DNA of 64,000 bases from Deltaproteobacteria bacterium (GTDB lineage Bacteria > Myxococcota_A > Polyangia > JAAYKL01). A program made the translations under genes and the position numbers. The DNA lies in the NCBI GenBank assembly GCA_016935665.1, contig JAFGQN010000064.1, forward strand, positions 62,001 through 126,000, in the 5' to 3' direction. Shown piece by piece: positions 1 to 57,873 of the stretch; within the stretch, counting starts at the first letter, position 1, and every line of letters begins with the position of its first letter. Under the pieces are notes generated by a model, which worked only from the letters and a program-made list of their open reading frames with translations, was not told the DNA's origin and searched no databases.

Positions 1-3000
1 CTTGAGGCACAGTATGAAAATGATATTTTTGGCAACAAACTGACGTATATCGATTCGTGGGGGTCTGTGTATCAGTATACCTACAATATTGATGGTACTA
101 TAAAAGAAATTTTAAACCAGGATAATCAGCGAGTGGCGTATACCTATACGCCCGCAGGACAACTCGACACCTTCACAGATGGTCGTGGCAACGTCACTGA
201 CTATGACTACGACGCCAATGGACGTGTCAGCAAAGAGATTGGTCCCACCGGCATCCAAACGGAATATGTATATCGGAGAGATGGTCTGCTCGTGGAAAAA
301 GTGGTTGATGATCAGCACACCAGATATAACTATAACGAACGGGGATTCCTAACTGAAATCGAAGAGTCTGAAACTGGGAGAGTGACCCAATACACCTACT
401 TTCCATCCGGTGCCCAGGAGACAGTTACCGATGCCGGGGGCAGTGTGTACCGGTACGAATACACTCCGGTCGGGCAAATTAAAAATACCTGGTGTAATGA
501 CGAAATTTCATCTTCATACAGCTACAATTCAAAGGGACAGATTGAACGGATAAGCTCCGGAAACAACGGTTCGATCAGCTTTCAGTACGATAGTCAGAAT
601 CGAATCACAAAGGTTGTTGATGCACTTGGTTATGCAGAAGAATATGAATATGGCGCCACCGGGGAAAAAACGGGATATATTGACAAAAACGGAAATCACT
701 GGCGATACACCTATACGAAAACAGGAAAACTGGACAGCACCATTGATCCGGAAGGGAATGTCACCTGGAATATTTACAATGAAAAAGGTCTCCTCGAGAG
801 TGTGATAGATGCCGACGATAGAGCAACCCGATTTGAGTATGATACTCGTGGGCGCATCGCTAAAGAGATTTTTCCCAACGGTGCATTTGTCACATATGCC
901 TACGACAACGTCGCCAATACAATGACAGTAACCGATGAACGCAATTTCTCAACGGAATATCACTATGATTCCTTTGACCGGCTGATTGAAAAGGTCGACC
1001 CCTATCAGTATCGGACGCGTTACGCATACGACAGGCATCATCAGCTCGTCGGCATTGAAAATCCAAATGGCGACAGCTACGACTATGGGTATGATGATCA
1101 GCAACGGCTGATAATGAAGATTGATGAAGACGGTGTCAGGCGGGAGTATCGTTACGATGCAAACGGAAACAAAGTTTATGCCGGTGATAACACGGGGAAA
1201 GGCATTACGTACACGTACGATCACAAAAACCGACTCCTTTCCCAAATCAATGAAATGAATGAAGTGGTTGCATATAAATATAATGATGCAGAAAATACAA
1301 AGACTGAAACCATCGCTGATGGCAAAGATTACCTGTACCAGTACGACAAAATGGGCAGAATTGTGCGGGAAGTGAACCGTGGAGGAGATGAACAGCGTTT
1401 TGAATATGACGGTAATGGAAATCAAATTTACAAACGTGCATTTGATGGCCAGGAATTCTTTTATACCTACGATTATCGCAACAAACTAACCGAAGCAGTG
1501 TATCCGGATGGAACCAGTGCAACCTATGCCTACGATAAACATGGCAATCTTACTGCTGCAACTAATTCAGACAGTTCGTTGCAGTTTGAATACGATGAAA
1601 TGAATCGGCCTGTCCTGACTCGGGATTTGGCGAAGCAAAACGAAATCGCTTTTGAGTATGACTGGGCCGGAAACAGAAATTTTGTTTCCTGGAATAACGG
1701 GGAGCGCACCCAGCGGTTTGAATACGGAAAAGTCAATGAACTCATTCAGGCCACGGATTACGAAGGGAACAGCGTACAGATGGTCTATGATGCGCTGGGG
1801 AGGGAAATTCAACGAATACATTCGGGAGGCAGTACCACCGACAAAGGCTATACTCCCGCAGGCCGACTGCAATATGTAAGAAACAGCAGCGAGCAGTCCG
1901 GGCGGCTCCTGCCCTCCAGAGCATATGTATATGACTCAGCGGGAAACATTGATTATCAGATAAACGACGAAGGTCGGATACAAAAGTACGAATACGACGC
2001 CGCCGGTAGATTGACCCATGCGTTCTATCCCACCTTTGATGGTCGCAAAAAAGAACTTGATATGCAAAATCGCCTGCGTCTTGGTTTGGATTCCTATGAT
2101 CGCACCCACACGTACGGTCTGCCCACCATTGAATCATCGGAGCCCCTGCAGTGGAATGCTGCTGATCTTTTGGCTGTTGAAGATGCCTTTGCACGTATCA
2201 GTTCCGACAATACTGCGCTTCAATACAATGAACCGATGTGGCAGGAAAGCTTCTATTACGACGACGCCGGCAATCGAAACTACAAAGTCAACTACCATGG
2301 CGCCATTAAGTACGATTACAATGAGGCCAACGCATTGATTAAGGCGGGCAACAGAGCGTATGAGTACGACCAGTCAGGCAACATGGTTCGCGAGCATATA
2401 GGAGATAAACAGGCCGTTTACTCATACAATTTCAACAACCGCGTGTCGCGAATCGAAACCAATTCCAATGATTTTTTAACCTGGAGCAAAACCACCTATG
2501 CGTTGGGAATGGAATACGCATACGATGCGCTGGACCGCCGGATTTCGCGCCATTATTATCAGCACAACGGCATCGGGTCTAACCAAAGAGATTACAAATA
2601 TGAAGACTCTCTGCATTTCCTGTACGCCGGATTTGATATGGATGTATTGGCAGATTTGTTCGACACCAATATGCAGGAGCTGGGACCAACGGATATTCAA
2701 CATCACATTCTTACCCCCAAAGCAGAGTACCTGCGCGGTAACGGAGACATTTTAAGCCGTACGGATTTCTATGGATTCAGAAACGGTGATACCCAAAATA
2801 ATGCTAAAAATTATTACCACCAAGACATTCGCCATTCGGTCGTCGCGGTATCCCAAAACAACGGTGAGCTTAAGGGACGCTATGATTACGATGCCTTTGG
2901 CAATCCGACCAAAGATGATTTCAACCATATTAACGAATACGGCTTTTTAGGCAAGCGTTACGATTTGGCTACGGGCCATTTCAACTTTGGCTTCAGAGAC

Positions 3001-3984
3001 TACTATCCCGCCCTGGGTGCGTTTACCACCGAGGATCCAATTCGCGAGGGGGCAAACTGGTATCGGTATTGCGAGTCTGATCCGGTGAATCATATAGATG
3101 CTCTTGGGTTGGCGAATGTTGACCCTATCAGTGAAGCCCAGGGCATCCAGGCGCATATTCTGATCAGTGCCGTTTATGCTTTTAGAATCAGGGAAAGAAG
3201 ACACGGTCAAATCTATTTGGATTTGCCGTTCACGCACATAATGGGTTTGTATGCGAAATGGCCCGGTCAGGATGTAGACGGTATAGAAGGGGTAAAGAAG
3301 CGACCGGACATAGCGCTGCATGCGGAGGATAATGGAAATTGGTATATTTGGGAAATCAAGCCAAAGAACAGTTATGGACCAGGTGAAAATCGATATTTAG
3401 AGGGGATAGGACAATTGAACGACTATATTAATCTGGCAGGAATGCATACTGAGCATAACGCCCAGGTACTAAGCGGATTTTATGTAGGTGGTCAACGGAA
3501 TATTCCTTTTCCCGCCTTAAGGGGCCGACCCTATGCGTTTATTACTGTTGAAAACCATAGAGAGCATGCTGGAATGTTGTACTATACCATCGACGATGGA
3601 AGCGAAGAGGAACCTCAACCACAGGCAAGGTCAATAAGTGAGCGTGCGCGGGAAGCTGTTGCGAACGATCCCAATATCCAAGTGCCGGATGATTTCTGGG
3701 AACCGCTCGGATCATTGAATTCTGGCATAACTCAGGCGCAAAATGACGAGTTAACACGTGCGTTTAATGAACTTTCTGCCCAGGACCAATTCCATGAAGA
3801 CATGCAAAGGGTAGGAAAGTGGATGGTTGTCGTCGGCGTTACCGGGCTGGCGGCGCCATATGTTGCGCCAGCGCTTTCGTCTGCAGAGGTAGCGATATCC
3901 TCTGGTGTCGCTGCCACTGGAGACAAAGTAATCCGTGTATTGGATAGCCTGTTTTCAGGCGCTGAATCGCTTTTGGGTTTCTAA
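1..3984 (+). CDS. RHS/YD-repeat protein with PD-(D/E)XK-like C-terminal tip (5' end outside window)
   Basis: The frame is open to the first base of the window, so this is the C-terminal part of a larger protein. A GTG at 67 is only an internal codon. About 900 residues are YD repeats of the type YDxxGNxxxxxD/YxYDxxGR, which in this family build a hollow shell enclosing the C-terminal tip. The RHS core ends at the typical GFLGKRYD...GHFNFGFRDYYPALGAFTTEDP block, followed by DPVNHIDALGL near residue 1015 counted from codon 67. The last 290 residues are a different domain. D1081, E1096 and K1098 in RPDIAL and WEIKPKN match the PD-(D/E)XK nuclease core, so the tip is probably a DNase-type toxin. 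The extreme C-terminus holds hydrophobic stretches (about 1255-1290). The next gene lies on the other strand and is not an obvious immunity gene. Family assignment is sure; the nuclease call is an inference from three residues and their spacing. Confidence 0.9.
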   Translation, partial: LEAQYENDIFGNKLTYIDSWGSVYQYTYNIDGTIKEILNQDNQRVAYTYTPAGQLDTFTDGRGNVTDYDYDANGRVSKEIGPTGIQTEYVYRRDGLLVEKVVDDQHTRYNYNERGFLTEIEESETGRVTQYTYFPSGAQETVTDAGGSVYRYEYTPVGQIKNTWCNDEISSSYSYNSKGQIERISSGNNGSISFQYDSQNRITKVVDALGYAEEYEYGATGEKTGYIDKNGNHWRYTYTKTGKLDSTIDPEGNVTWNIYNEKGLLESVIDADDRATRFEYDTRGRIAKEIFPNGAFVTYAYDNVANTMTVTDERNFSTEYHYDSFDRLIEKVDPYQYRTRYAYDRHHQLVGIENPNGDSYDYGYDDQQRLIMKIDEDGVRREYRYDANGNKVYAGDNTGKGITYTYDHKNRLLSQINEMNEVVAYKYNDAENTKTETIADGKDYLYQYDKMGRIVREVNRGGDEQRFEYDGNGNQIYKRAFDGQEFFYTYDYRNKLTEAVYPDGTSATYAYDKHGNLTAATNSDSSLQFEYDEMNRPVLTRDLAKQNEIAFEYDWAGNRNFVSWNNGERTQRFEYGKVNELIQATDYEGNSVQMVYDALGREIQRIHSGGSTTDKGYTPAGRLQYVRNSSEQSGRLLPSRAYVYDSAGNIDYQINDEGRIQKYEYDAAGRLTHAFYPTFDGRKKELDMQNRLRLGLDSYDRTHTYGLPTIESSEPLQWNAADLLAVEDAFARISSDNTALQYNEPMWQESFYYDDAGNRNYKVNYHGAIKYDYNEANALIKAGNRAYEYDQSGNMVREHIGDKQAVYSYNFNNRVSRIETNSNDFLTWSKTTYALGMEYAYDALDRRISRHYYQHNGIGSNQRDYKYEDSLHFLYAGFDMDVLADLFDTNMQELGPTDIQHHILTPKAEYLRGNGDILSRTDFYGFRNGDTQNNAKNYYHQDIRHSVVAVSQNNGELKGRYDYDAFGNPTKDDFNHINEYGFLGKRYDLATGHFNFGFRDYYPALGAFTTEDPIREGANWYRYCESDPVNHIDALGLANVDPISEAQGIQAHILISAVYAFRIRERRHGQIYLDLPFTHIMGLYAKWPGQDVDGIEGVKKRPDIALHAEDNGNWYIWEIKPKNSYGPGENRYLEGIGQLNDYINLAGMHTEHNAQVLSGFYVGGQRNIPFPALRGRPYAFITVENHREHAGMLYYTIDDGSEEEPQPQARSISERAREAVANDPNIQVPDDFWEPLGSLNSGITQAQNDELTRAFNELSAQDQFHEDMQRVGKWMVVVGVTGLAAPYVAPALSSAEVAISSGVAATGDKVIRVLDSLFSGAESLLGF

Positions 3985-4031
3985 ATGCTACGCGTCTCAG
4001 GCTCAATGGCATACTGAAAAAGCAAAGCGAC

Positions 4032-4727
4032 TTACTCGACGTTTACAAGTTCAGTCGAGCCGCCATCCGGGATGTTTTCAATTTTAACCACCATGTGTCT
4101 TTTATCATCTGTGACGTAGTAAAACGCTTTCCAAAAAAATCTGCGCCAATCGCTGAACGTAAACCGAACTTTATGACAGCGGAAAGTGCCGGCTTTTACC
4201 GTTACAGTTTCGTGTCCTTCGAGTTGAAAGGACATGGGGTACGCCTTCAGTTTCGGCAACGCGTCCATCTGGAGTAAATCGAACTCATATACCGTATCGT
4301 CTTCGAGCGGAAGGGCGCTTAGAATGAGCATGTTCTCCGCTGTGACGTTGGGTGAAAATCTGGTTTTCTTCCGTATGGGCTTTTGATTCCATGTTCCCGA
4401 AGCCGTGACGTTGCCAATACCGTCAAAGTCGAAACGCATCTGCCCATTCCTGCTGCGATAGCTGACGTGTGAAGGGTGACCTTTCGCGTTCGCGGTAACC
4501 TGCCATTGGGCGGTTTTGTCCCTGTATATGTACGAGAGGGTCTGGCCATGGCTGGTTTGCGCCACCTTGTAGCTGGTAACACCGGTATATGTGGCGCCGT
4601 CTTCTTTTGTTACGCGAACGGTATGCGTCTCACCGTTTTGGATGTGAATGGTTTCCGTTTGGCCCCATACCACTGCCGCGATGCAAAACACAACACCAAA
4701 CCAGATCAGTTTTTTAAGAAGCTTCAT
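4032..4727 (-). CDS. Exported DUF3108-like protein
   Basis: A 231-residue protein starting MKLLKKLIWFG, with a signal peptide ending near VWGQ, so it should be periplasmic or outer-membrane associated. The chosen ATG has an AGGAG box 8 bases upstream; an upstream in-frame start would add 19 residues and overlap the radical SAM gene. The middle and end (YEFDLLQMDALPK, GHETVTVKAGTFRCHKVRFTFSDW, FYYVTDDKRHMVVKIE) follow the DUF3108 pattern, in which a beta-rich domain contains a VxAGxFxCxKV strand. The role of DUF3108 proteins is poorly defined. The gene lies 34 bases behind the radical SAM gene on the same strand, so the two are probably cotranscribed. Confidence 0.6.
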   Translation of the reverse strand: MKLLKKLIWFGVVFCIAAVVWGQTETIHIQNGETHTVRVTKEDGATYTGVTSYKVAQTSHGQTLSYIYRDKTAQWQVTANAKGHPSHVSYRSRNGQMRFDFDGIGNVTASGTWNQKPIRKKTRFSPNVTAENMLILSALPLEDDTVYEFDLLQMDALPKLKAYPMSFQLEGHETVTVKAGTFRCHKVRFTFSDWRRFFWKAFYYVTDDKRHMVVKIENIPDGGSTELVNVE

Positions 4728-4761
4728 GAGTATTGTTCTCCTGGTAACCACAAATGCCCGA

Positions 4762-6537
4762 TCACATCTTTTTGTGCAGGGCAATGTTCCGATAGTTCAT
4801 ATTTGAATTGTAGGCCCAGATGGCGGCCTCAATGCTTTTCGTATGGGCAAGGCTGTAAAAAAAGCGTCGGACCACATTGAACCGGGAGTAGAAGCGCCGG
4901 TTGCAAAGGTGGTGTTGCTGTGTGAATGCCTCGTATGACATTTGGTCCAGGCGGAAGGTCAACGCGCCCATATCGTATTTGGCCCAGTCTGCTGGAAAGT
5001 CCGTGTACAGTAGCTTTTGCTGCGATTCCAATGTCTTGAAGAATTGGGTGCCAGGTAGCGGCGTCATTACTGTTGCCTGAATGACGTCCATGGGAAGTTG
5101 AAGAATATCGTCAGCTTTCTGCTCAAGGCGCTGACGGGTTTCGCCTGGTGTGCCGTTGATAAACGCACCCAATACAGCGATTCGGTGTCGTCTTATGTTG
5201 CGCAACGCTTTTTTATAGTCCACCCCGATGTTGCCCTTTTTATTCATTGCTGTCAGAACGGCGGGATCCTGGGTTTCCAGTCCCAGAAATATCATCCTGC
5301 AGCCGGCTTTTCGGGCCCAGTGGAGGAGAATGTCATTCGTTGCGATGTGAACAGATGCCTGACAAAACCATGTTTTATCCAACCGTCTCTCCACCATTCC
5401 CTGAAAGAGCCTTTGGGCTCTGTCCATGGACGCTGCGCTGTTACCCGCGATGTTGTCGTCCACGAAGAACAACTGACGGTTCGGGATGCACGCTATTTCG
5501 TCGAGCACGTCTTCCACAGGCCGCTCCCGGCGTTTGCCGCCATTGAACGCGGTGACCGAGCAGAACGCGCAGTTCATTGGACATCCGCGGCTGGTCTGAA
5601 CCGTGGCGAAGAGGTAGCTTTGGTCAAAGAGATCGCGTCCTGGAAAAGGCAGGTTGTCGAGTGTCGGTGGCTGACCAGAATACAGGCGCTTAAGCTTTCC
5701 CAACATAAAATCTTCGATGAGCCCAGGCCATACCCCTTCCGCCTCTCCAGTCACCACTGTATCCACATGGCAAAGCGCTTCTTTCGGTTGCATGGAAGCG
5801 TGAATGCCCCCCATCACTACAGGTACGTGATGCTCGCGGTACTTTGCGGCGATGTCATATCCCCGTGCTGCGGACGAAGTAAAAGTTGTAATCCCCACCA
5901 GATCTGCATCCCTGTATTGAAAAGGCGCTATGTTTTCATCAATGATTTCGATGTCGAATCGTTTTGGCGTCAAGGCGGCAATGATGCCCAGAGAAAGCGG
6001 CGCAAAGCGTGAGGTGCGGTTGTGAGACATTCCTGTTCTATCGGCATTGACGGGATTGACCAGGATTAGTTTTCTGTCCGTGGCGGAAGAGACAGCGTGG
6101 GACCGAGCCGAACCCGGCGCCCGACGCTTGATGTCGCGCAATACCATCAGCATTCCTGCCGTATAACTGACGAGAGCGGCTCCAAAACTCAAAGTAAACG
6201 CAGCGATTCGGCTACCATCGCGAGGGATGATAGCGAATGTGGTTGCCACGGTGGGAAGCGCAAAACAGAGGATTGGTACCATATACGGAGAAGATGCCCC
6301 CACCGCTTGAACGGCGTGTTTGTTTCTCAATGTGCTGTGAACTCCGAAAATATACGTTGCTGTGAACCCGACAACGAAGGCGACCATCGGGACAATGGCT
6401 GCGGCGGAAGGTGTCACCGTGACGGCAATGATCGCCGCAAAGCTGACAAAAGCTATCAATGGCGCAAGGTAGACGGCTTTAAAATTGTGCGTTCTTTCCA
6501 ATATGTTCATGGCGCCAGCATAATTGCTATTCGGCAC
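4762..6537 (-). CDS. Cobalamin-binding radical SAM enzyme with N-terminal membrane domain
   Basis: A 591-residue protein in three parts. Residues 20-135 contain about four hydrophobic segments, which is unusual for this family. Residues 156-285 are a B12-binding Rossmann domain (LILVNPVNAD, VVMGGIHASM, VVTGEAEGVW). Then comes the radical SAM core with the CxxxCxxC cluster motif at C319, C323 and C326 (SRGCPMNCAFC), and a C-terminal part with GLETQDPAVL and TPGETRQRLE. Such enzymes cleave S-adenosylmethionine and often methylate or rearrange lipids, hopanoids or antibiotics; the substrate here cannot be read. The membrane region suggests a lipid substrate or membrane tethering. An internal ATG at residue 10 (position 6510) is an alternative start. 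It probably forms an operon with the exported DUF3108-like gene. Confidence 0.85.
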   Translation of the reverse strand: MPNSNYAGAMNILERTHNFKAVYLAPLIAFVSFAAIIAVTVTPSAAAIVPMVAFVVGFTATYIFGVHSTLRNKHAVQAVGASSPYMVPILCFALPTVATTFAIIPRDGSRIAAFTLSFGAALVSYTAGMLMVLRDIKRRAPGSARSHAVSSATDRKLILVNPVNADRTGMSHNRTSRFAPLSLGIIAALTPKRFDIEIIDENIAPFQYRDADLVGITTFTSSAARGYDIAAKYREHHVPVVMGGIHASMQPKEALCHVDTVVTGEAEGVWPGLIEDFMLGKLKRLYSGQPPTLDNLPFPGRDLFDQSYLFATVQTSRGCPMNCAFCSVTAFNGGKRRERPVEDVLDEIACIPNRQLFFVDDNIAGNSAASMDRAQRLFQGMVERRLDKTWFCQASVHIATNDILLHWARKAGCRMIFLGLETQDPAVLTAMNKKGNIGVDYKKALRNIRRHRIAVLGAFINGTPGETRQRLEQKADDILQLPMDVIQATVMTPLPGTQFFKTLESQQKLLYTDFPADWAKYDMGALTFRLDQMSYEAFTQQHHLCNRRFYSRFNVVRRFFYSLAHTKSIEAAIWAYNSNMNYRNIALHKKM

Positions 6538-50452: not shown

Positions 50453-51202
50453 ATGCTTTCCATGCGCACGTTTCGACGGTTTTCATATAAAGATACCAAT
50501 CTCAGAGTTGCCTGTGATCTGTTTGAACCGCTGATAGATGAAGTGGTCAATCAACGCAAGATGCTCGAAAAATACATTCGCGAACATGGCGCTTTTCGTG
50601 AATCGCTGAGCCCAATAGCGGTATTGGAAAATGCGCCCGATGTTGTGACGCGGATGGCCGCCGCCGCGCAACAGACAGGCGTGGGTCCCATGGCAGCGGT
50701 GGCCGGAACATTGGCGCAGATGGGCGTTGAAAGAGCACTGTATCTGGGCGCCACCGAATCAATCGTTGAAAATGGGGGGGATATGTACATTGCAGCCGCC
50801 TCCCCTGTTACCATTGGGATTCACAGTGGGGATGAAAAGTTTGGAGATGCCCTGGCATTCCGGGTGCCTCCGTCTCGCGTGGCCATTTGTTCATCGTCCA
50901 GTAAAATGGGCCATTCATTGAGTTTTGGAAAATGCAGTCTGGCGACAGTTGTTTCCTCAAATGCATCTTTGGCAGATGCGGCAGCCACCCTCCTTGGGAA
51001 TATTGTTCAATCTGCCGATGACCTGGCTTCCGCGGTTGCGCGGGTTGGCGCCATTGATGGTGTGGACGGTGTGATGGCTATCATGGATGGTCAGATTGGC
51101 CTAAAGGGGAGTCTTCCTGAAATTGTCCGAAATGCGGACTGTGCGACCGATGGTAAAATAACCCGGGACAGACACTCGCTTCATTGGTTGATAGAAAATT
51201 GA
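50453..51202 (+). CDS. UPF0280 (ApbE-like, COG2122) protein
   Basis: A 249-residue protein of the UPF0280 family, distantly related to the ApbE flavin transferases. RTFRRFSYKDTNLRVACD, VTRMAAAAQQTGVGPMAAVAGTLAQ, ESIVENGGDMYIAA and CSSSSKMGHSLSFGKCSLATVVS are typical. It is the third member often found with the COG1900 and NIL-ferredoxin genes; the detailed reaction is not settled. Nineteen bases separate it from the ferredoxin gene. ATG 50453 is used; 50462 is possible. Confidence 0.88.
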   Translation: MLSMRTFRRFSYKDTNLRVACDLFEPLIDEVVNQRKMLEKYIREHGAFRESLSPIAVLENAPDVVTRMAAAAQQTGVGPMAAVAGTLAQMGVERALYLGATESIVENGGDMYIAAASPVTIGIHSGDEKFGDALAFRVPPSRVAICSSSSKMGHSLSFGKCSLATVVSSNASLADAAATLLGNIVQSADDLASAVARVGAIDGVDGVMAIMDGQIGLKGSLPEIVRNADCATDGKITRDRHSLHWLIEN

Positions 51203-51424
51203 TTTAACCCACATCACGTGAAAATTATTTTGGTATAGTCGTTTTGTCTGGATATTTCCATTATGCGCGGCTGCTGATGAATCCAGCAGCCGCGTGCCGT
51301 ACCTCCAGGTTGAAACATAAACTTTTTTGGGGTGGAATCGTTACACAGTGTGAATTCCGGACCGGATAAATCGGTGCGCCGAGATTTATGTGTCGCTGGT
51401 AGTCCGTCATCGAAGGAGAGGAGC

Positions 51425-52537
51425 ATGAAAAGTATCTTTTTTATGTTGGCGCTCGCTCTGATTTTTTGGAATTTCACTGCCTGCAACAGTGATTCAAAAA
51501 AAAACGATAATGGGGATACTGGGACCAGTCCGGAGGACAACAACCCATTTCGGCCAATTGAGCTGGAGAATATGGCGAGGGCGCTGGCAATAGCGGTTGA
51601 GGGGAAAGGAAATCCCGAGAAGGCGTCTATCGCTGTCGTAGCGAATCTACAGTCGGATTTCTGGCATCCCAATCAGATAGGTATCAGTGCAGCGTCCGGC
51701 GAGATTGGTTGCATCGCCATTTTTGATGCGCCATTGAATGGCGAGTTGAGCGAGCAATTGGCGATTTTGCAGAATCGAATTGATAACAAGTATACTGGAA
51801 TGGCGGTGTCTCCAATCGATCCGGCAGGGGGTGAGCCCACATTGGCTGAGGCGGAAGCGCAAGGCATTAGTGTGATTACGTTTGATTCCGAGGCTGTGGC
51901 CAACAGTGTTCGCAAGCTGTATCTGGGTACCATTAATCGCGATGCAGGTCGGCAGGCGGGGATGAAGATGGCCCAGTTGCTGGGAAGCACTGGCAAAGTG
52001 GCCGCTTTTGCCGGAATATTCACCGATGAAAACAACGCATCCGAGCGATACGTCGGTATCCAGGAAGCGCTTGCCACCACGAATGTTGAGTTGCTCCCAC
52101 CGTATGCGGATGATGCGGGTAAGGCGGTGGCCAGACAGAATGTGGAATTGGCCATATCTCAACATCCAGACCTTACAGGAATCATTACTATCTGGTCGTA
52201 TAATGGTCCAGAGGCGGCCAGAGCAGTTGAAGCGCTGGGAAAGACGGGGCAGATAAAAATTGTGGCATTTGACCTTGAGCCCGATACAATTTATCACCTG
52301 GATGCAGGTGTTATCAATGCGGCGGTTGTTCAACGGCCATACTGGATGGGGTACCGGAGTGTTTACATTCTCTATGCAATGAACGTTTTAGGGGCGGATG
52401 CGACGCGAACCCTGTTGGCGCCATGGTTTGAGGAAAGCGGCAATTTTATTATCAATACTGGAACTGATGTAATAACCGGGGAAAATCTCGATGTTTATCG
52501 CGATTATCTTCAAAGTTTGGGAATAAGCAGTTCATAG
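51425..52537 (+). CDS. Orphan sugar-type solute-binding lipoprotein
   Basis: A 370-residue lipoprotein with lipobox NFTAC (Cys20), then a periplasmic binding protein of the ribose/xylose type (Peripla_BP_4): SIAVVANLQSDFWHPNQIGISAASGEIG, YTGMAVSPIDPAGGEPTLAEAEAQGISVITFDSEA, LYLGTINRDAGRQAGMKMAQLL, and GIITIWSYNGPEAARAVEALGK. No ABC permease or ATPase is near, so it either serves a transporter encoded elsewhere or acts as a sensor. GGAGAGGAG lies ahead of the ATG. Confidence 0.9.
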   Translation: MKSIFFMLALALIFWNFTACNSDSKKNDNGDTGTSPEDNNPFRPIELENMARALAIAVEGKGNPEKASIAVVANLQSDFWHPNQIGISAASGEIGCIAIFDAPLNGELSEQLAILQNRIDNKYTGMAVSPIDPAGGEPTLAEAEAQGISVITFDSEAVANSVRKLYLGTINRDAGRQAGMKMAQLLGSTGKVAAFAGIFTDENNASERYVGIQEALATTNVELLPPYADDAGKAVARQNVELAISQHPDLTGIITIWSYNGPEAARAVEALGKTGQIKIVAFDLEPDTIYHLDAGVINAAVVQRPYWMGYRSVYILYAMNVLGADATRTLLAPWFEESGNFIINTGTDVITGENLDVYRDYLQSLGISSS

Positions 52538-52821
52538 TAAACGCGTTTTTGTCGGTCCTCACCGGATGGCGATATCGAGATTCAGTTTAACCGCAGTGTA
52601 CATCATCCTTCTTATTTAAGAAACCATCAATTCCAATTACATACCCGATGATTGTCCAGTTTGTAATTTTACTGATGTCATAAAAAGACCATGTGGGTAA
52701 AAAATCCATCATCAAAATGCTGATTTAATGATATATATTGAGTAATGATCGTAACTGACATCTGTTGCGAAGATGGAAAACGTGTAAGTATTTTGAAATC
52801 GGCATCCCGTTATGTGAAAAA

Positions 52822-54657
52822 ATGAATATTGCTGAACATCGGTGTTTACCGCTCATATCCTTTTTCATCATTTTCCTGACCACTGCATGCGGCCGGATTG
52901 GATTTGAAGTTCGGGGAACAGACAGCGACGGCCCCACCGATGATACCCAACCCGATGACACGTTCGGGAACGACACGCTTTCAGATTCAGTCATTTTCTC
53001 TGATGAGACAGACAACAATCAATTGGACTCCGTGTCCGACAGTGAGTCCGTTTCTGATTCGGATGACGATAGCGCCTTCGCGTCGGATACGGATAATGGT
53101 TCAGAAACAGCTTCCGATTCTGATTCCGACACTGGGACCGAGTTCGATTCCAGCACGGAAACCGATACAACCGTGCCTTGTCCCGTCCTCCCCTTCGGGA
53201 GGGTTATTTTGTCGGATACTGATATTGCCGACTTTGTTCACTTCGGTGAATCCAGTTTTGATTTGGCCGCTGTGACGGGACAATCGTTTGACAGCGCCTG
53301 GCGAGTCACAACCCAAACTGTGTCCGGACCGGTGGTGACGGAACAACTTTATCACGATATTCCCACAACAATCGATGCTGGGGATCACATGGTGGTGGAA
53401 TTCTGGGCGCGCTGTATTTCATCGGCGTCGGGGGATTGCCACGTGGGAATGCTGCTGGAGCAGGGCGGCACGCCCTGGACCAGTCTGGTGGAATATTTTT
53501 CATTTGTGGGCACGGACTGGACATTTTTTCAGGTTCCCGTGGTGGCCGAAGCAACATTCGCTGCCGGCGCCACCCATGAAACCTTCAGATTGGGATACAG
53601 CGACCAGGTTGTCGAAATATATCCATCTCAAATCGTTAGTTACGGCGCCATTGATACATCGGCCCGTCCGGAGTGTTTGCCCGACAACACCCTGCTGCAG
53701 ACCGAGGTGGCGCTGATCAGCGAGCCACCCACAACGGCCACGGTGGATATCCGCTACGAATATTTCTTTGAAGTGAACGGTCAACCCAAACCGGTTGCCA
53801 CGGCGACAGGATTGCCGGCATGGCTCACGTTGAACAATGAGCGTCGAGGCATTACCGGAATCCCTGGATATGAGGATGTGGGAACCACATCGCCAATCAC
53901 GTTGCAGGTGGCCAGTGAAAACGGCGTGGATTCACAACAGTTTCAGATTGTGGTATCTGTCCATCCCGGTCTGGTGGGACACTGGCCTCTGGATGAAACA
54001 GGGGGGACTGTGGCCACAGATGTTTCGGGAAACGGACGACATGGCATCGTGATGGGTGATGTGTCCTGGCAACCATCGGATGGATATTACGACGGCGCGA
54101 TACGTTTCAATAGCTACAGCGGCGTCTACGATTATGTATTGCTGCCGTCTGATGGCCTGATGGACAATATCCAATATAGGTCGCACACCCTGGCGGCCTG
54201 GGTGCGCATGGAGAGTATTCCTTCTGGTGTGGATGGTTCCGACAATGATTTTGGATACGGTATCCTCATCAAACACGGGTACCATACAGGCCTGTGGTAC
54301 AATGCGCTTAGGGAATTTCATGCCACACTGAATTTTACGGATGCATTATATGATCCCGCTCTGGAAGTTACCGATTCGAATGTGTATCACCATGTGGTGG
54401 CGCGATATGACTTTGATAATAATGAATTCATGCTCTTCGTCGATGGGACGCCCGCCGGGACCGCGTGGTTGTCCGGCACCGAAACAGCCAATGATTTTGG
54501 CGCCACTCAATGGCGAATCGGCATTGCCGATCCCAGTGCTTCCACATATGCGTGGCCGAGTGACATGAGTGCCGATGACGTTCGCATTTACAATCGCGCA
54601 CTGACATTTTGGGAAATCATGTCATTGGCAGATGTCAATCCAAACGATTTGGATTAA
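52822..54657 (+). CDS. LamG/concanavalin-domain surface lipoprotein
   Basis: A 611-residue lipoprotein with lipobox LTTAC (Cys23) and an Asp/Ser/Thr/Glu-rich linker to about residue 120. A CBM-like beta domain (about 125-290: HMVVEFWARCISSASGDCHVGM) and an Ig-like putative cadherin module (ATGLPAWLTLNNERRGITGIPGYEDV) follow. The C-terminal LamG domain reads LVGHWPLDETGGTVATDVSGNGRHGIV, then YHHVVARYDFDNNEFMLFVDG and DDVRIYNRALTFWEI. It is probably a glycan-binding surface protein. The start is chosen for the lipoprotein signal; the ribosome site is weak. Confidence 0.85.
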   Translation: MNIAEHRCLPLISFFIIFLTTACGRIGFEVRGTDSDGPTDDTQPDDTFGNDTLSDSVIFSDETDNNQLDSVSDSESVSDSDDDSAFASDTDNGSETASDSDSDTGTEFDSSTETDTTVPCPVLPFGRVILSDTDIADFVHFGESSFDLAAVTGQSFDSAWRVTTQTVSGPVVTEQLYHDIPTTIDAGDHMVVEFWARCISSASGDCHVGMLLEQGGTPWTSLVEYFSFVGTDWTFFQVPVVAEATFAAGATHETFRLGYSDQVVEIYPSQIVSYGAIDTSARPECLPDNTLLQTEVALISEPPTTATVDIRYEYFFEVNGQPKPVATATGLPAWLTLNNERRGITGIPGYEDVGTTSPITLQVASENGVDSQQFQIVVSVHPGLVGHWPLDETGGTVATDVSGNGRHGIVMGDVSWQPSDGYYDGAIRFNSYSGVYDYVLLPSDGLMDNIQYRSHTLAAWVRMESIPSGVDGSDNDFGYGILIKHGYHTGLWYNALREFHATLNFTDALYDPALEVTDSNVYHHVVARYDFDNNEFMLFVDGTPAGTAWLSGTETANDFGATQWRIGIADPSASTYAWPSDMSADDVRIYNRALTFWEIMSLADVNPNDLD

Positions 54658-54660
54658 CGT

Positions 54661-54796
54661 GGCTGTGAAAAGGGGACTGTCGGGAGGTCGAGTAAGCCGA
54701 GGACGCTGATGCGCAGCCGGTTACCCACGTTCAGTCCCCGGCGAGGGTGAAACCCCACCAGTCCTCAGGGTGTATGGAGAAAAAGGCAGTGACCGC
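54661..54796 (+). ncRNA. Structured non-coding segment upstream of PIN-like gene
   Basis: GGGGACTG (54672-54679) pairs perfectly with CAGTCCCC (54732-54739). Inside, GTAA(G)CCG pairs with CGGTTAC around GCTG-ATGCG-CAGC, giving nested stems. After the main stem, GGGTGAAACCCC and GAGG...CCTC can form one more hairpin. The segment ends at the start codon of the next gene. It resembles a 5' leader RNA or RNA-element partner, but it matches no class I can name. Only pairing by eye supports it. Confidence 0.45.
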
Positions 54797-55732
54797 ATGA
54801 AAAAAAACAGAAACTATATTCTCATTGCAGATGAGGGGGTTTCCAGGGAAATCAGCTATCAATTTCGAACATTTTTACAAAAGCAAGGCTATGTACATCG
54901 TGCCACATGTATGATTGCCACTGAACATTCAGGAATGCCGGATGGCCAGATTATTCGCCAGCTTCTCAATCCAGGGACAATATTCTTAACTACTGACAGA
55001 CCGCTGCATAACACCGTGCTGTCACGCTCGCTCACCTCGTACTATGTAAGCCATGATGGCCATTTCATCAGCGCAAAACTCAAGGGTATTCGCACACTCC
55101 CCCAAAATCCCCGCTGTGCATCCGTTCTCCCTGAAAATCATCTCTACCACGCGCCTCCGCCCAATATCCGCGCGTATCTCCTGCCATTGTCTGAACGATC
55201 GCTCAAAAAACTTCGCACGAAACGTCGGCGAATCCGCAATCACTTTGACGGCGACGCTCATATCGAGACGCTTGCTGTTACGGTTTCCTGGAAAGCTATT
55301 GGCTCAAAAACGCTCATCGGCTTGAGGCTTAGAATAACTTCAAATTCAGGAATCCCGGCGCTTGACGCCAGTGAACTCTATGTCCTGGAAAACATTCTCC
55401 CCGTCCATAGAAATCAGGTCGCCGTCAACTATGCCTTAATGCTCCCCATTCAGCTTATGCTGCATGGCATCACGACCCGTATTTATTACGATGCGCCAAC
55501 AATGGCTTCACCGACAGAGATATTTCATCAGAGCGAGATTACGCCCGGTTTCAAGCTGTTTACAGAACTTTCACGTGTATTTTCCCATGTTGAGTTTTGT
55601 CCTTCCGTCAAAGGCCGTTTCATCGAACCGCTGCGAAAAAAACTGATGCAGCTGGTTGCAGCAAACTCAAACGAGATTGTTGAAGGAAATATTGAAGAAA
55701 TTGAGCGCAACGTTTTCAAAACGCGGAAATGA
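54797..55732 (+). CDS. Unknown protein with PIN-like N-terminus and possible RNase H-like C-terminal part
   Basis: A 311-residue soluble protein, start MKKNRNYILIADEGV. Residues 7-90 show the spacing of acidic residues of DUF5615/Mut7-C-type PIN domains: ILIADEG, then MPDGQIIRQLL, then IFLTTDRPLHNTVL. Residues about 155-290 contain NQVAVNYALMLPIQLMLHGITTRIYYDAP, which is similar in layout to the central helix-strand part of RNase H folds, though the expected Glu is Val. A run of basic residues (LKKLRTKRRRIRNH, about 136-149) lies between. Neither call is secure. It is preceded by a structured non-coding stretch and followed by coding debris, which suggests an accessory island. Confidence 0.55.
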   Translation: MKKNRNYILIADEGVSREISYQFRTFLQKQGYVHRATCMIATEHSGMPDGQIIRQLLNPGTIFLTTDRPLHNTVLSRSLTSYYVSHDGHFISAKLKGIRTLPQNPRCASVLPENHLYHAPPPNIRAYLLPLSERSLKKLRTKRRRIRNHFDGDAHIETLAVTVSWKAIGSKTLIGLRLRITSNSGIPALDASELYVLENILPVHRNQVAVNYALMLPIQLMLHGITTRIYYDAPTMASPTEIFHQSEITPGFKLFTELSRVFSHVEFCPSVKGRFIEPLRKKLMQLVAANSNEIVEGNIEEIERNVFKTRK

Positions 55733-55871
55733 ATCGGATTGCCTGGATGGCTTGATATCCCATCCGCGGTTTCATTTTTTGGTTTTTGGGTGAAGATACA
55801 CAGATGTTATCTGATTTATATATGAGCTTATTATGACATATCGTCCTGGTTTACTCGTCGGATGAGGCATC

Positions 55872-56060
55872 TTGAAAAAAGAGGTTCTGTATCTGATGCA
55901 AAAGAACAATTGGCGTCAAAAAACCAGCTTTGCCTGTTCGTCTCTGCATGCGACTGCGACTCTGGACAAATTATCGGCGGCACTAAAAAAAATGCTCGAA
56001 AAAGCGCCCGAAAGGACCATTGTATGTACGGCGCATGTCATCCGCTCATCGATCAAATGA
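55872..56060 (+). CDS. Small hypothetical protein
   Basis: A 62-codon frame from TTG 55872 (KKEVLYLMQKNNWRQKTSF, KLSAALKKMLEKAPERTIVC). The content looks protein-like with a helical middle, and GATGAGG lies ahead of the TTG. It is in a region of debris, so it may be a fragment. No function is suggested. Confidence 0.25.
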   Translation: MKKEVLYLMQKNNWRQKTSFACSSLHATATLDKLSAALKKMLEKAPERTIVCTAHVIRSSIK

Positions 56061-56168
56061 TTACAGTGTATGGCGCGCAACCAATGCCTGCGTAAAACTG
56101 TATTGAAATGCTGTTGGGTAAAAAGACGTTCACCGGTGAATTACAGAGGAGCCTTCTTTTTGTTGTAA

Positions 56169-56411
56169 GACTGGGCCCAACGATGGGATTTCGTTACCGA
56201 AGATGTATTTGGAAAGGGCCCTAATGCCACAGAAGAAATCCTGCGGACCGCCCATGATCATTTTCTGTGCCTCAAAACACCGTGCTCCGGGGATTTTACC
56301 AGCGAGGCGGAATCGTTGTCCAGGCGGTTTAACATGGCACTGGCATGGCGCGACGTATCACTTAATATTCTGGAGATGCAGTTGAAGCAATTGGTCGACG
56401 CACAGTGTTGA
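56169..56411 (+). pseudogene. Start-less coding remnant
   Basis: An 80-codon frame without a start codon near its beginning, reading WDFVTEDVFGKGPNATEEILR, DHFLCLKTPCSGDFTSEAES and MALAWRDVSLNILEMQLKQL. The sequence looks like the C-terminal helical part of a real protein that has lost its front. An in-frame stop lies directly upstream. The family was not recognised. The rest of 55733-56713 shows no other gene. Confidence 0.4.
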
Positions 56412-56713
56412 ATAGCAGATTCGGAAAAACGGTGTCATCGTCCCCCACAACGCCGCGCGATTATGTGGCTCGTCTGGTGATTGTTTTATTTGGCGCAAAT
56501 TCAACCCCTTTTGGACGATCCATGAACACTGTATTTTGAATTGAGCTGGGCGATGGAGAGAGGCTTTCATTTTATCGCCGGCAGGAACGCGCTCCCCGGT
56601 CCCTTTTTAAAAATCCTGTCACTGAATAAATCCATGTGGCGCGATCGATGAAGACAGAAAAGGGGTGGGGAACGAAAAACAGATTTAAGGAGCAATGAAA
56701 GGGGTTAAAACCA

Positions 56714-57838
56714 ATGAACTTTAAATGGCGTCCTTTTGTCAGCTGGACAATCATAACGATGTTGGGATGTTTCCTGTGCATGTGCGGTGAAACCTCGGAT
56801 ACTGGTGACAATGACAGCAGCACTGCCGATGGAGATTCAGATGGGGATTCCGACAGTGATAGCGATACGGATGGGGACTCTGACGGCGATTCCGATGCGG
56901 ATGGGGACAGTGATTCCGACGGCGATTCCGATGGAGATAGTGACAGCGACGGGGATTCGGATGGCGACAGTGACAGCGATAGCGATAGCGATACAGATGG
57001 CGACAGCGATGCAGATGGCGATTCGGATGGCGATGGCGATACTGAAAGCGAAACGGAAACGGAGACAGATACCGGATCCGATGGTTACACTTTGGCGCCC
57101 GTCACGGATTATTCGGCGACGGGGCCTTTTGCGACCAAAACAGAAACAAATGTGGGTCCCGGTGGTGGTTACACCGTTTTTCGTCCTGAGACTCTGGGCG
57201 AAAATGGTTTTCTACACGCGCCCATCGTGTTTGGACCGGGCATTGGTCAACAGGTGGGGGTACATACAGAGATGCTCACCAATTTTGCATCCCACGGCTT
57301 TATCGTAGTGGGAACGCCAGTGCTCAACGAAGGCCCCAATGGTCTCAACAACCTGGCCAGCATGAAAAATGGCATTGACTGGATTGTGGGTCAAAATGAT
57401 ACCCCCGGAACGTACGAAGGAAAAATCTGGGTAGATCATGTCATTGCCATGGGCTTCTCTGTGGGCGGGACGGCAGCGGTAGATGTGGGTGAACACGAAG
57501 CCGTGGCCACCGTTGTATCCATTCACGGTCACACTTCTGATGCTGCACTTCATGGCACGTTGTTTCAAACGTCGGGCACGCAGGATACCGTTGGGCTACC
57601 TATGCAGCAGAAGACTTATGACAATTCAGATGTCCCCACATTCCTGGCCACTTTGACGGGTGCGCCGCATCAATACATTGAGAAAAACGGCGGTGGCGAG
57701 GAAAGACCGGCGATTCTGGCCTGGATGCGGTATCGGATATACAACGATACGGGCGCTAAAAAATATTTCTTTGGCGATGATTGCATCCTGTGTTCCGCCC
57801 CATGGGAAAATCCCCAGCGAAAAAACTGGACTGAATAA
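56714..57838 (+). CDS. Cutinase/PET-hydrolase-like esterase lipoprotein
   Basis: A 374-residue lipoprotein with a hydrophobic signal (lipobox probably MLGC, Cys19), an Asp/Ser/Gly linker (about 39-120), then a 250-residue alpha/beta hydrolase. Landmarks are [31 protein letters not shown], the nucleophile elbow [11 protein letters not shown] near residue 257, and APHQYIEKN near 318 with the probable catalytic His. This resembles the cutinase/polyesterase and chlorophyllase-like group. AAAGGGG precedes ATG 56714. Plant polyesters or acetylated glycans are likely substrates. Confidence 0.8.
56828..57073 (+). repeat. Asp/Ser/Gly linker repeat in esterase lipoprotein
   Basis: Six-base units of G-D-S-D, D-G-D and D-A-D type over about 245 bases. 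It is the only regular GDSD linker here that is carried on the plus strand. It is less regular than the 15.1-15.4 kb repeat, suggesting greater age. Confidence 0.8.
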
Positions 57839-57873
57839 CCGCCTTTTATTCAATTGCCGACAGTTCTTGTTGT

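Follow-up and report, generated by a model that had tools for sequence, protein, structure and literature searches.

RNA encoded directly upstream of a nuclease is known from IscB with its omega-RNA and from type III toxin-antitoxin systems, and PIN-like nucleases are commonly toxins, VapC being an example. PIN and Mut7-C domains have catalytic residues in common and both are RNases (PMC1779556). Integron cassettes are rich in phage-defence genes, and of the Vibrio cholerae cassettes that were tested, about 10% conferred resistance to phages (review PMC12409362). Here we analyse a gene in a 64,000-nucleotide stretch of DNA from a Deltaproteobacteria bacterium (the window), which a preliminary description had put forward, together with a non-coding stretch directly ahead of it, as a candidate RNA-guided or RNA-neutralised system. 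We find that its product is a nuclease-like protein, rare and so far undescribed, and that the leader is probably no more than a GC-rich junction or 5' UTR, without a partner role.

A rare two-domain protein with scattered relatives

The gene and the parts of its product are as follows.

54797..55732, plus strand: gene for a PIN-like two-domain protein of 311 aa (ORF translation; four relatives)
54797..55081, plus strand: N-terminal PIN-like domain, about residues 1-95 (invariant residues, weak PIN_10 match, model)
55193..55246, plus strand: Arg/Lys-rich helix, about residues 133-150, KKLRTKRRRIRN (alignment of relatives)
55256..55666, plus strand: C-terminal domain, about residues 154-290 (low-confidence model, structure matches, invariant residues)

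The ORF is intact and opens with an ATG at 54797; an alternative GTG start at 54770 would give a protein 9 aa longer. The preliminary description had called the protein unknown, and it scores above the cut-off for no family in Pfam, NCBIfam, PADLOC or PHROGs; sequence searches of the PDB gave no match, and searches of viral and phage collections gave no relative.

Four relatives were found. The copy on a plasmid of Persicobacter sp. JZB09 is intact and 36% identical over 89% of the protein (E 1e-32). A copy in a Salinivirgaceae MAG (37% identity, E 2e-37) is split by a frameshift, its N-terminal fragment being 72% identical to the Persicobacter copy. The other two come from the window's own class, in a search that yielded genomes G498 and G519 with E values of 2.4e-36 and 3.2e-13: G498 carries a full-length copy with 30% identity over 307 aligned columns, and G519 retains the C-terminal part alone, from about residue 88 onward. 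The gene is present in 3 of 318 genomes of the class, the window's own included, and in each of two phylum samples it occurs in one of 379 genomes, which is the window genome itself. Such a patchy spread across two phyla suggests horizontal transfer. The G519 copy, devoid of the PIN-like domain (locus L029, 1444-2157, minus strand), lies immediately next to a thiS-like gene. Fusions of ThiS-like domains to Mut7-C PIN-type RNases are known from other proteins (PMC1779556), and the resemblance is probably a coincidence.

The N-terminal domain resembles PIN_10 and Mut7-C domains

All copies that have an N-terminus share D12, E13, P48, D49, T65, D67, R68, H71 and N72. Judged from the alignment, these invariant residues agree with the arrangement of acids in PIN-like domains of the PIN_10/Mut7-C type, and the PIN-type acid spacing noted at the outset is borne out by D12, E13, D49 and D67, which are kept in every one of these copies. 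The Pfam PIN_10 match is below threshold, with 12.7 bits for the window protein and 15.7 bits for the Salinivirgaceae copy against a cut-off of 26.2. When we aligned the family with hhalign to 20 PIN_10-type sequences from the window's own class, the aspartates fell in register globally (E = 0.15), and the local alignment gave E = 0.0097 at a probability of just 4%. Because the PIN_10 scores lie under the curated cut-off, we call the domain PIN-like and do not count it as a PIN_10 member.

We modelled the protein with AlphaFold from a three-row alignment made of the window and genome-contig rows, with the row from the plasmid collection left out. The model is poor overall (pLDDT 46.5); a single-sequence model reached a pLDDT of 35.7 and was discarded as unusable. 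Residues 1-95 are predicted as b-a-b-a-b-a-b-b with a pLDDT of about 60-70. The best VIA-align matches of this domain are MID domains at Z < 7; no PIN chain stands among the matches listed, which we do not take as evidence against a PIN fold.

A conserved basic helix leads to a C-terminal half with a possible RNase H-like layout

Between the two domains, the basic patch that the preliminary description had pointed out (KKLRTKRRRIRN, residues 137-148) lies within the Arg-rich helix, which is conserved in all copies covering its position. Neither the helix nor the C-terminal domain matches a Pfam family.

The C-terminal half is modelled as bbb-a-b-a-b-a, the RNase H-like order, at a pLDDT below 50. 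Foldseek ranks Argonaute MID-PIWI structures at the top (E 5.4e-05) and RNase H1 lower down; the match to LC11 RNase H1 has a probability of 1.0 and a TM-score of 0.45 by target length and 0.25 by query length. VIA-align returned RNase H1, integrases and PIWI at Z of about 6, with a maximum of 6.8 that falls below 8 and may reflect just a common arrangement. An RNase H-like layout of this half, proposed before from the sequence, is plausible at the level of a low-confidence model. E193, E247, K272, G273 and an acidic residue at 277 are invariant in the domain, as are N292 and E293 just past it. The RNase H catalytic acids are not kept: strand 1 bears no conserved Asp, and D232 is missing in G498 and G519.

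The leader is structured no further than chance

The following features lie upstream of the gene.

52765-54657: LamG-domain lipoprotein gene, upstream of the leader
54658..54796, plus strand: GC-rich leader, insertion junction or probable 5' UTR, not demonstrable as a structured RNA
54672..54739, plus strand: 8-bp perfect stem, in which 54672-54679 GGGGACTG pairs with 54732-54739 CAGTCCCC

The leader is the 139 nt that separate the LamG lipoprotein gene's stop codon from the ATG at 54797. A non-coding stretch ending at the start codon and an 8-bp perfect closing stem had both been described correctly, the stem ending 57 nt before the ATG. The claim of a structured RNA did not survive comparison with dinucleotide-preserving shuffles (n = 200). 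The folding energy of the full leader is -46.2 kcal/mol, and the shuffles average -47.4 (z = 0.35); 125 of the 200 shuffles fold as well, and the best sub-segment reaches a z of only -1.4. Among the shuffles, 7% contain a perfect stem of 8 bp or more, as do 38 of 460 window tiles of the leader's length (8%). The GC content of the leader is 62% compared with about 51% in the window, a value that 3.4% of tiles reach, and GC richness alone suffices to explain the low folding energy.

Further searches gave the leader no family. An Rfam scan, run with the gathering threshold and again with E values up to 5, returned nothing but one chance snoRNA match. The leader has no second copy in the window's genome, matches 38 relatives over at most 37 bases, and its cores have no match in the viral and phage collections. 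Neither an intrinsic terminator nor a sigma-70 promoter was found in or around it. Group II intron domain V, suggested by a resemblance to AAGCCG...CGGTT, was considered and dropped, as no Rfam intron model matched.

The preliminary description had named homologues that lack the upstream structure as the observation that would count against a protein-RNA pair, and this is what the relatives show: none has a leader-like structure upstream. A gap of just 5 nt separates the G498 gene from a short ORF ahead of it (a putative gene), and the sequences that precede the Persicobacter and Salinivirgaceae copies have nothing in common with the leader. A 30-nt match in Nocardia, short and in coding-looking DNA, was judged convergent. 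An RNA-protein system is not supported, and nothing ties leader RNA to the protein.

The gene is probably lineage-specific cargo

Two further features describe the setting.

51203..57873, strand not assigned: lineage-specific 6.7-kb insertion holding the gene, flanked by the 50453-51202 and 57874-60933 genes
55733..56713, plus strand: roughly 1 kb that lacks any intact gene ('debris'), with short frames only and no family match

In G002, a genome of the same genus, the 50453-51202 and 57874-60933 genes are adjacent, 17 bp apart (tblastn ends), and in G001 and G005 other genes follow the 50453-51202 gene. The junction is therefore variable among these genomes, and we take the gene to be lineage-specific cargo. 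The segments after the 50453-51202 gene span 51203-57873 in the window, 1616-5305 in locus L069, 12705-12722 in L070 and 2915-8000 in L071. A deletion in G002 could instead account for the difference; gain in the window lineage is favoured over it because all other relatives lack the gene.

The island with coding debris reported previously corresponds to this insertion, in which the gene is followed by the stretch of about 1 kb. Frame +2 of 55733-56713 holds an open stretch of about 75 codons (FVTEDVFGKGPNATEEIL...), possibly a pseudogene remnant. The other content of the insertion, lipoproteins, does not point to defence, and a non-systematic inspection of the gene's neighbours brought up no known defence gene. 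Several putative lipoproteins of the window genome have Asp/Ser-rich repeats (window 56714-57838 and 53037-53165; locus L017, 8979-9353), which are coded by degenerate repeats in 6-nt multiples.

The window's genome contains a true integron integrase on contig C85 (TIGR02249, 390 bits). Upstream of it (locus L017, 1-2794) are two attC-like sites, 84% identical, and the contig ends inside the array. Searched against the window's genome, the attC of this integron matches contig C85 only and not the leader, and a search of 54601-54796 for paired AAC/GTT core boxes gave none.

In Persicobacter, a repeat that we read from its sequence as a candidate attC-like cassette site lies directly upstream of the gene, at the position matching the leader. 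It recurs at 10 places in the P. psychrovividus plasmid pPP2 with 85-92% identity, its copies sitting between single-gene ORFs on the same strand. The pPP2 locus (L007) is a dense array of hypothetical ORFs with attC-like repeats between them, all genes shown being unannotated. The Persicobacter copy adjoins a tyrosine recombinase (integron/Xer-like, related to integron integrases) and an IS91 transposase. These two lie directly beside the PIN-like gene in locus L003 (2680-4742), and the end DNA of that locus recurs on five other Persicobacter records.

A horizontally acquired nuclease gene as the preferred reading

We propose that the gene works alone, was acquired as cargo by horizontal transfer and encodes a PIN-like ribonuclease not described before, perhaps serving phage defence, and give this reading a probability of roughly 0.55. 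Its mobility is supported by the insertion in the window lineage and by the integron-cassette-like context in Persicobacter. On the molecular level, the N-terminal domain would bind a metal ion through D12, E13, D49 and D67 and cut RNA, while the Arg-rich helix and the C-terminal domain, the latter with a predicted RNase H-like layout lacking the usual catalytic acids, may hold the substrate or restrain the nuclease. The weakest step, taken from context, is the benefit: defence against phages or other mobile DNA is suggested by the phage resistance that some integron cassettes conferred in tests, together with the cassette-like context of the Persicobacter copy. A bolder version, which we put forward as doubtful, would make the protein a mobile single-gene immunity or toxin family that travels as cross-phylum, integron-type cargo; its PIN-like nuclease would be fused to an Arg-rich helix and to a C-terminal RNase H-like domain, degenerate and possibly PIWI-like, that acts as sensor or built-in inhibitor.

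Two other readings centre on the leader. Were it a real RNA working with the nuclease as antitoxin or guide, its place directly before the gene, the 8-bp stem 57 nt from the ATG and its GC richness (62%, where the window has about 51%) would all be in keeping; we consider this very improbable given a fold at shuffle level (z = 0.35), a single copy, no Rfam match, the 5-nt ORF gap in G498 and upstream regions without similarity. The leader might also be a recombination site, now decayed or unusual in form and either attC-like or the end of a transposon, that marks the entry point of the gene and folds as single-stranded DNA and not as RNA. The attC-like repeat at the same place in Persicobacter, the integrase (390 bits) and two attC-like sites of the window's own genome, and the position of the gene within an insertion agree with this. 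It is unlikely all the same, since the leader is single-copy and has no paired core boxes, and the attC of the genome's own integron matches only its own contig.

The remaining readings concern the protein. PIN-like nucleases being often toxins (VapC), it could be a type II toxin whose antitoxin is an unrecognised short ORF. With 311 aa, however, it is about twice the size of VapC, no neighbouring ORF is common to the loci of the relatives, and the ORFs in 55733-56713 match no family, so that we regard a type II system as improbable. Alternatively, the protein could be a minimal MID-PIWI-like one, related to Argonaute, in which an RNase H-type domain comes after a Rossmann-type one and which takes a short guide from elsewhere. 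Argonautes are the best whole-length Foldseek matches (E 5.4e-05), and VIA-align pairs the model with MID or PIWI regions at Z up to 6.8. Yet the whole-length matches superpose at an rmsd of about 20 Å, the model behind them has a pLDDT of 46.5, and Z < 8 possibly reflects just a common arrangement; moreover, Pfam Piwi does not match, the conserved strand-1 Asp is absent, and the invariant acids suit PIN, not MID. We judge this idea to have very little chance of being right.

The reading as a horizontally acquired PIN-like ribonuclease gene has a wider consequence. If the protein is indeed a nuclease, it represents a rare nuclease family that has no name yet, is built of two domains and occurs in distant phyla and in mobile contexts. 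Small single-gene cargo of this kind is where new proteins for defence against phages can be found.

Comparison with known systems

With IscB and its omega-RNA, and with type III toxin-antitoxin systems, the locus shares the layout alone, a non-coding stretch followed by a nuclease-like ORF. Unlike in those systems, the leader is not conserved, has chance-level structure and is absent in relatives, and the window protein matches no family of such nucleases. The RNase H-like fold of RNase HI, integrase cores and PIWI is approached in the predicted bbb-a-b-a-b-a order and in the matches to RNase H1 and PIWI, in a low-confidence model; the window protein differs in that strand 1 lacks a conserved Asp, and two relatives have lost D232. 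No attC was found beside the window copy, in contrast to integron gene cassettes, which the Persicobacter relative resembles as a single gene behind an attC-like repeat. PIN_10, DUF5615 and Mut7-C domains resemble the N-terminal domain in the b-a-b-a-b-a order, in the D(E)...(P)D...T(x)D spacing and in aspartates that fall in register globally. The window protein differs from them in scoring below the cut-off (12.7 and, for the Salinivirgaceae copy, 15.7 bits) and in the fusion of its N-terminal domain to an Arg-rich helix and a C-terminal domain.
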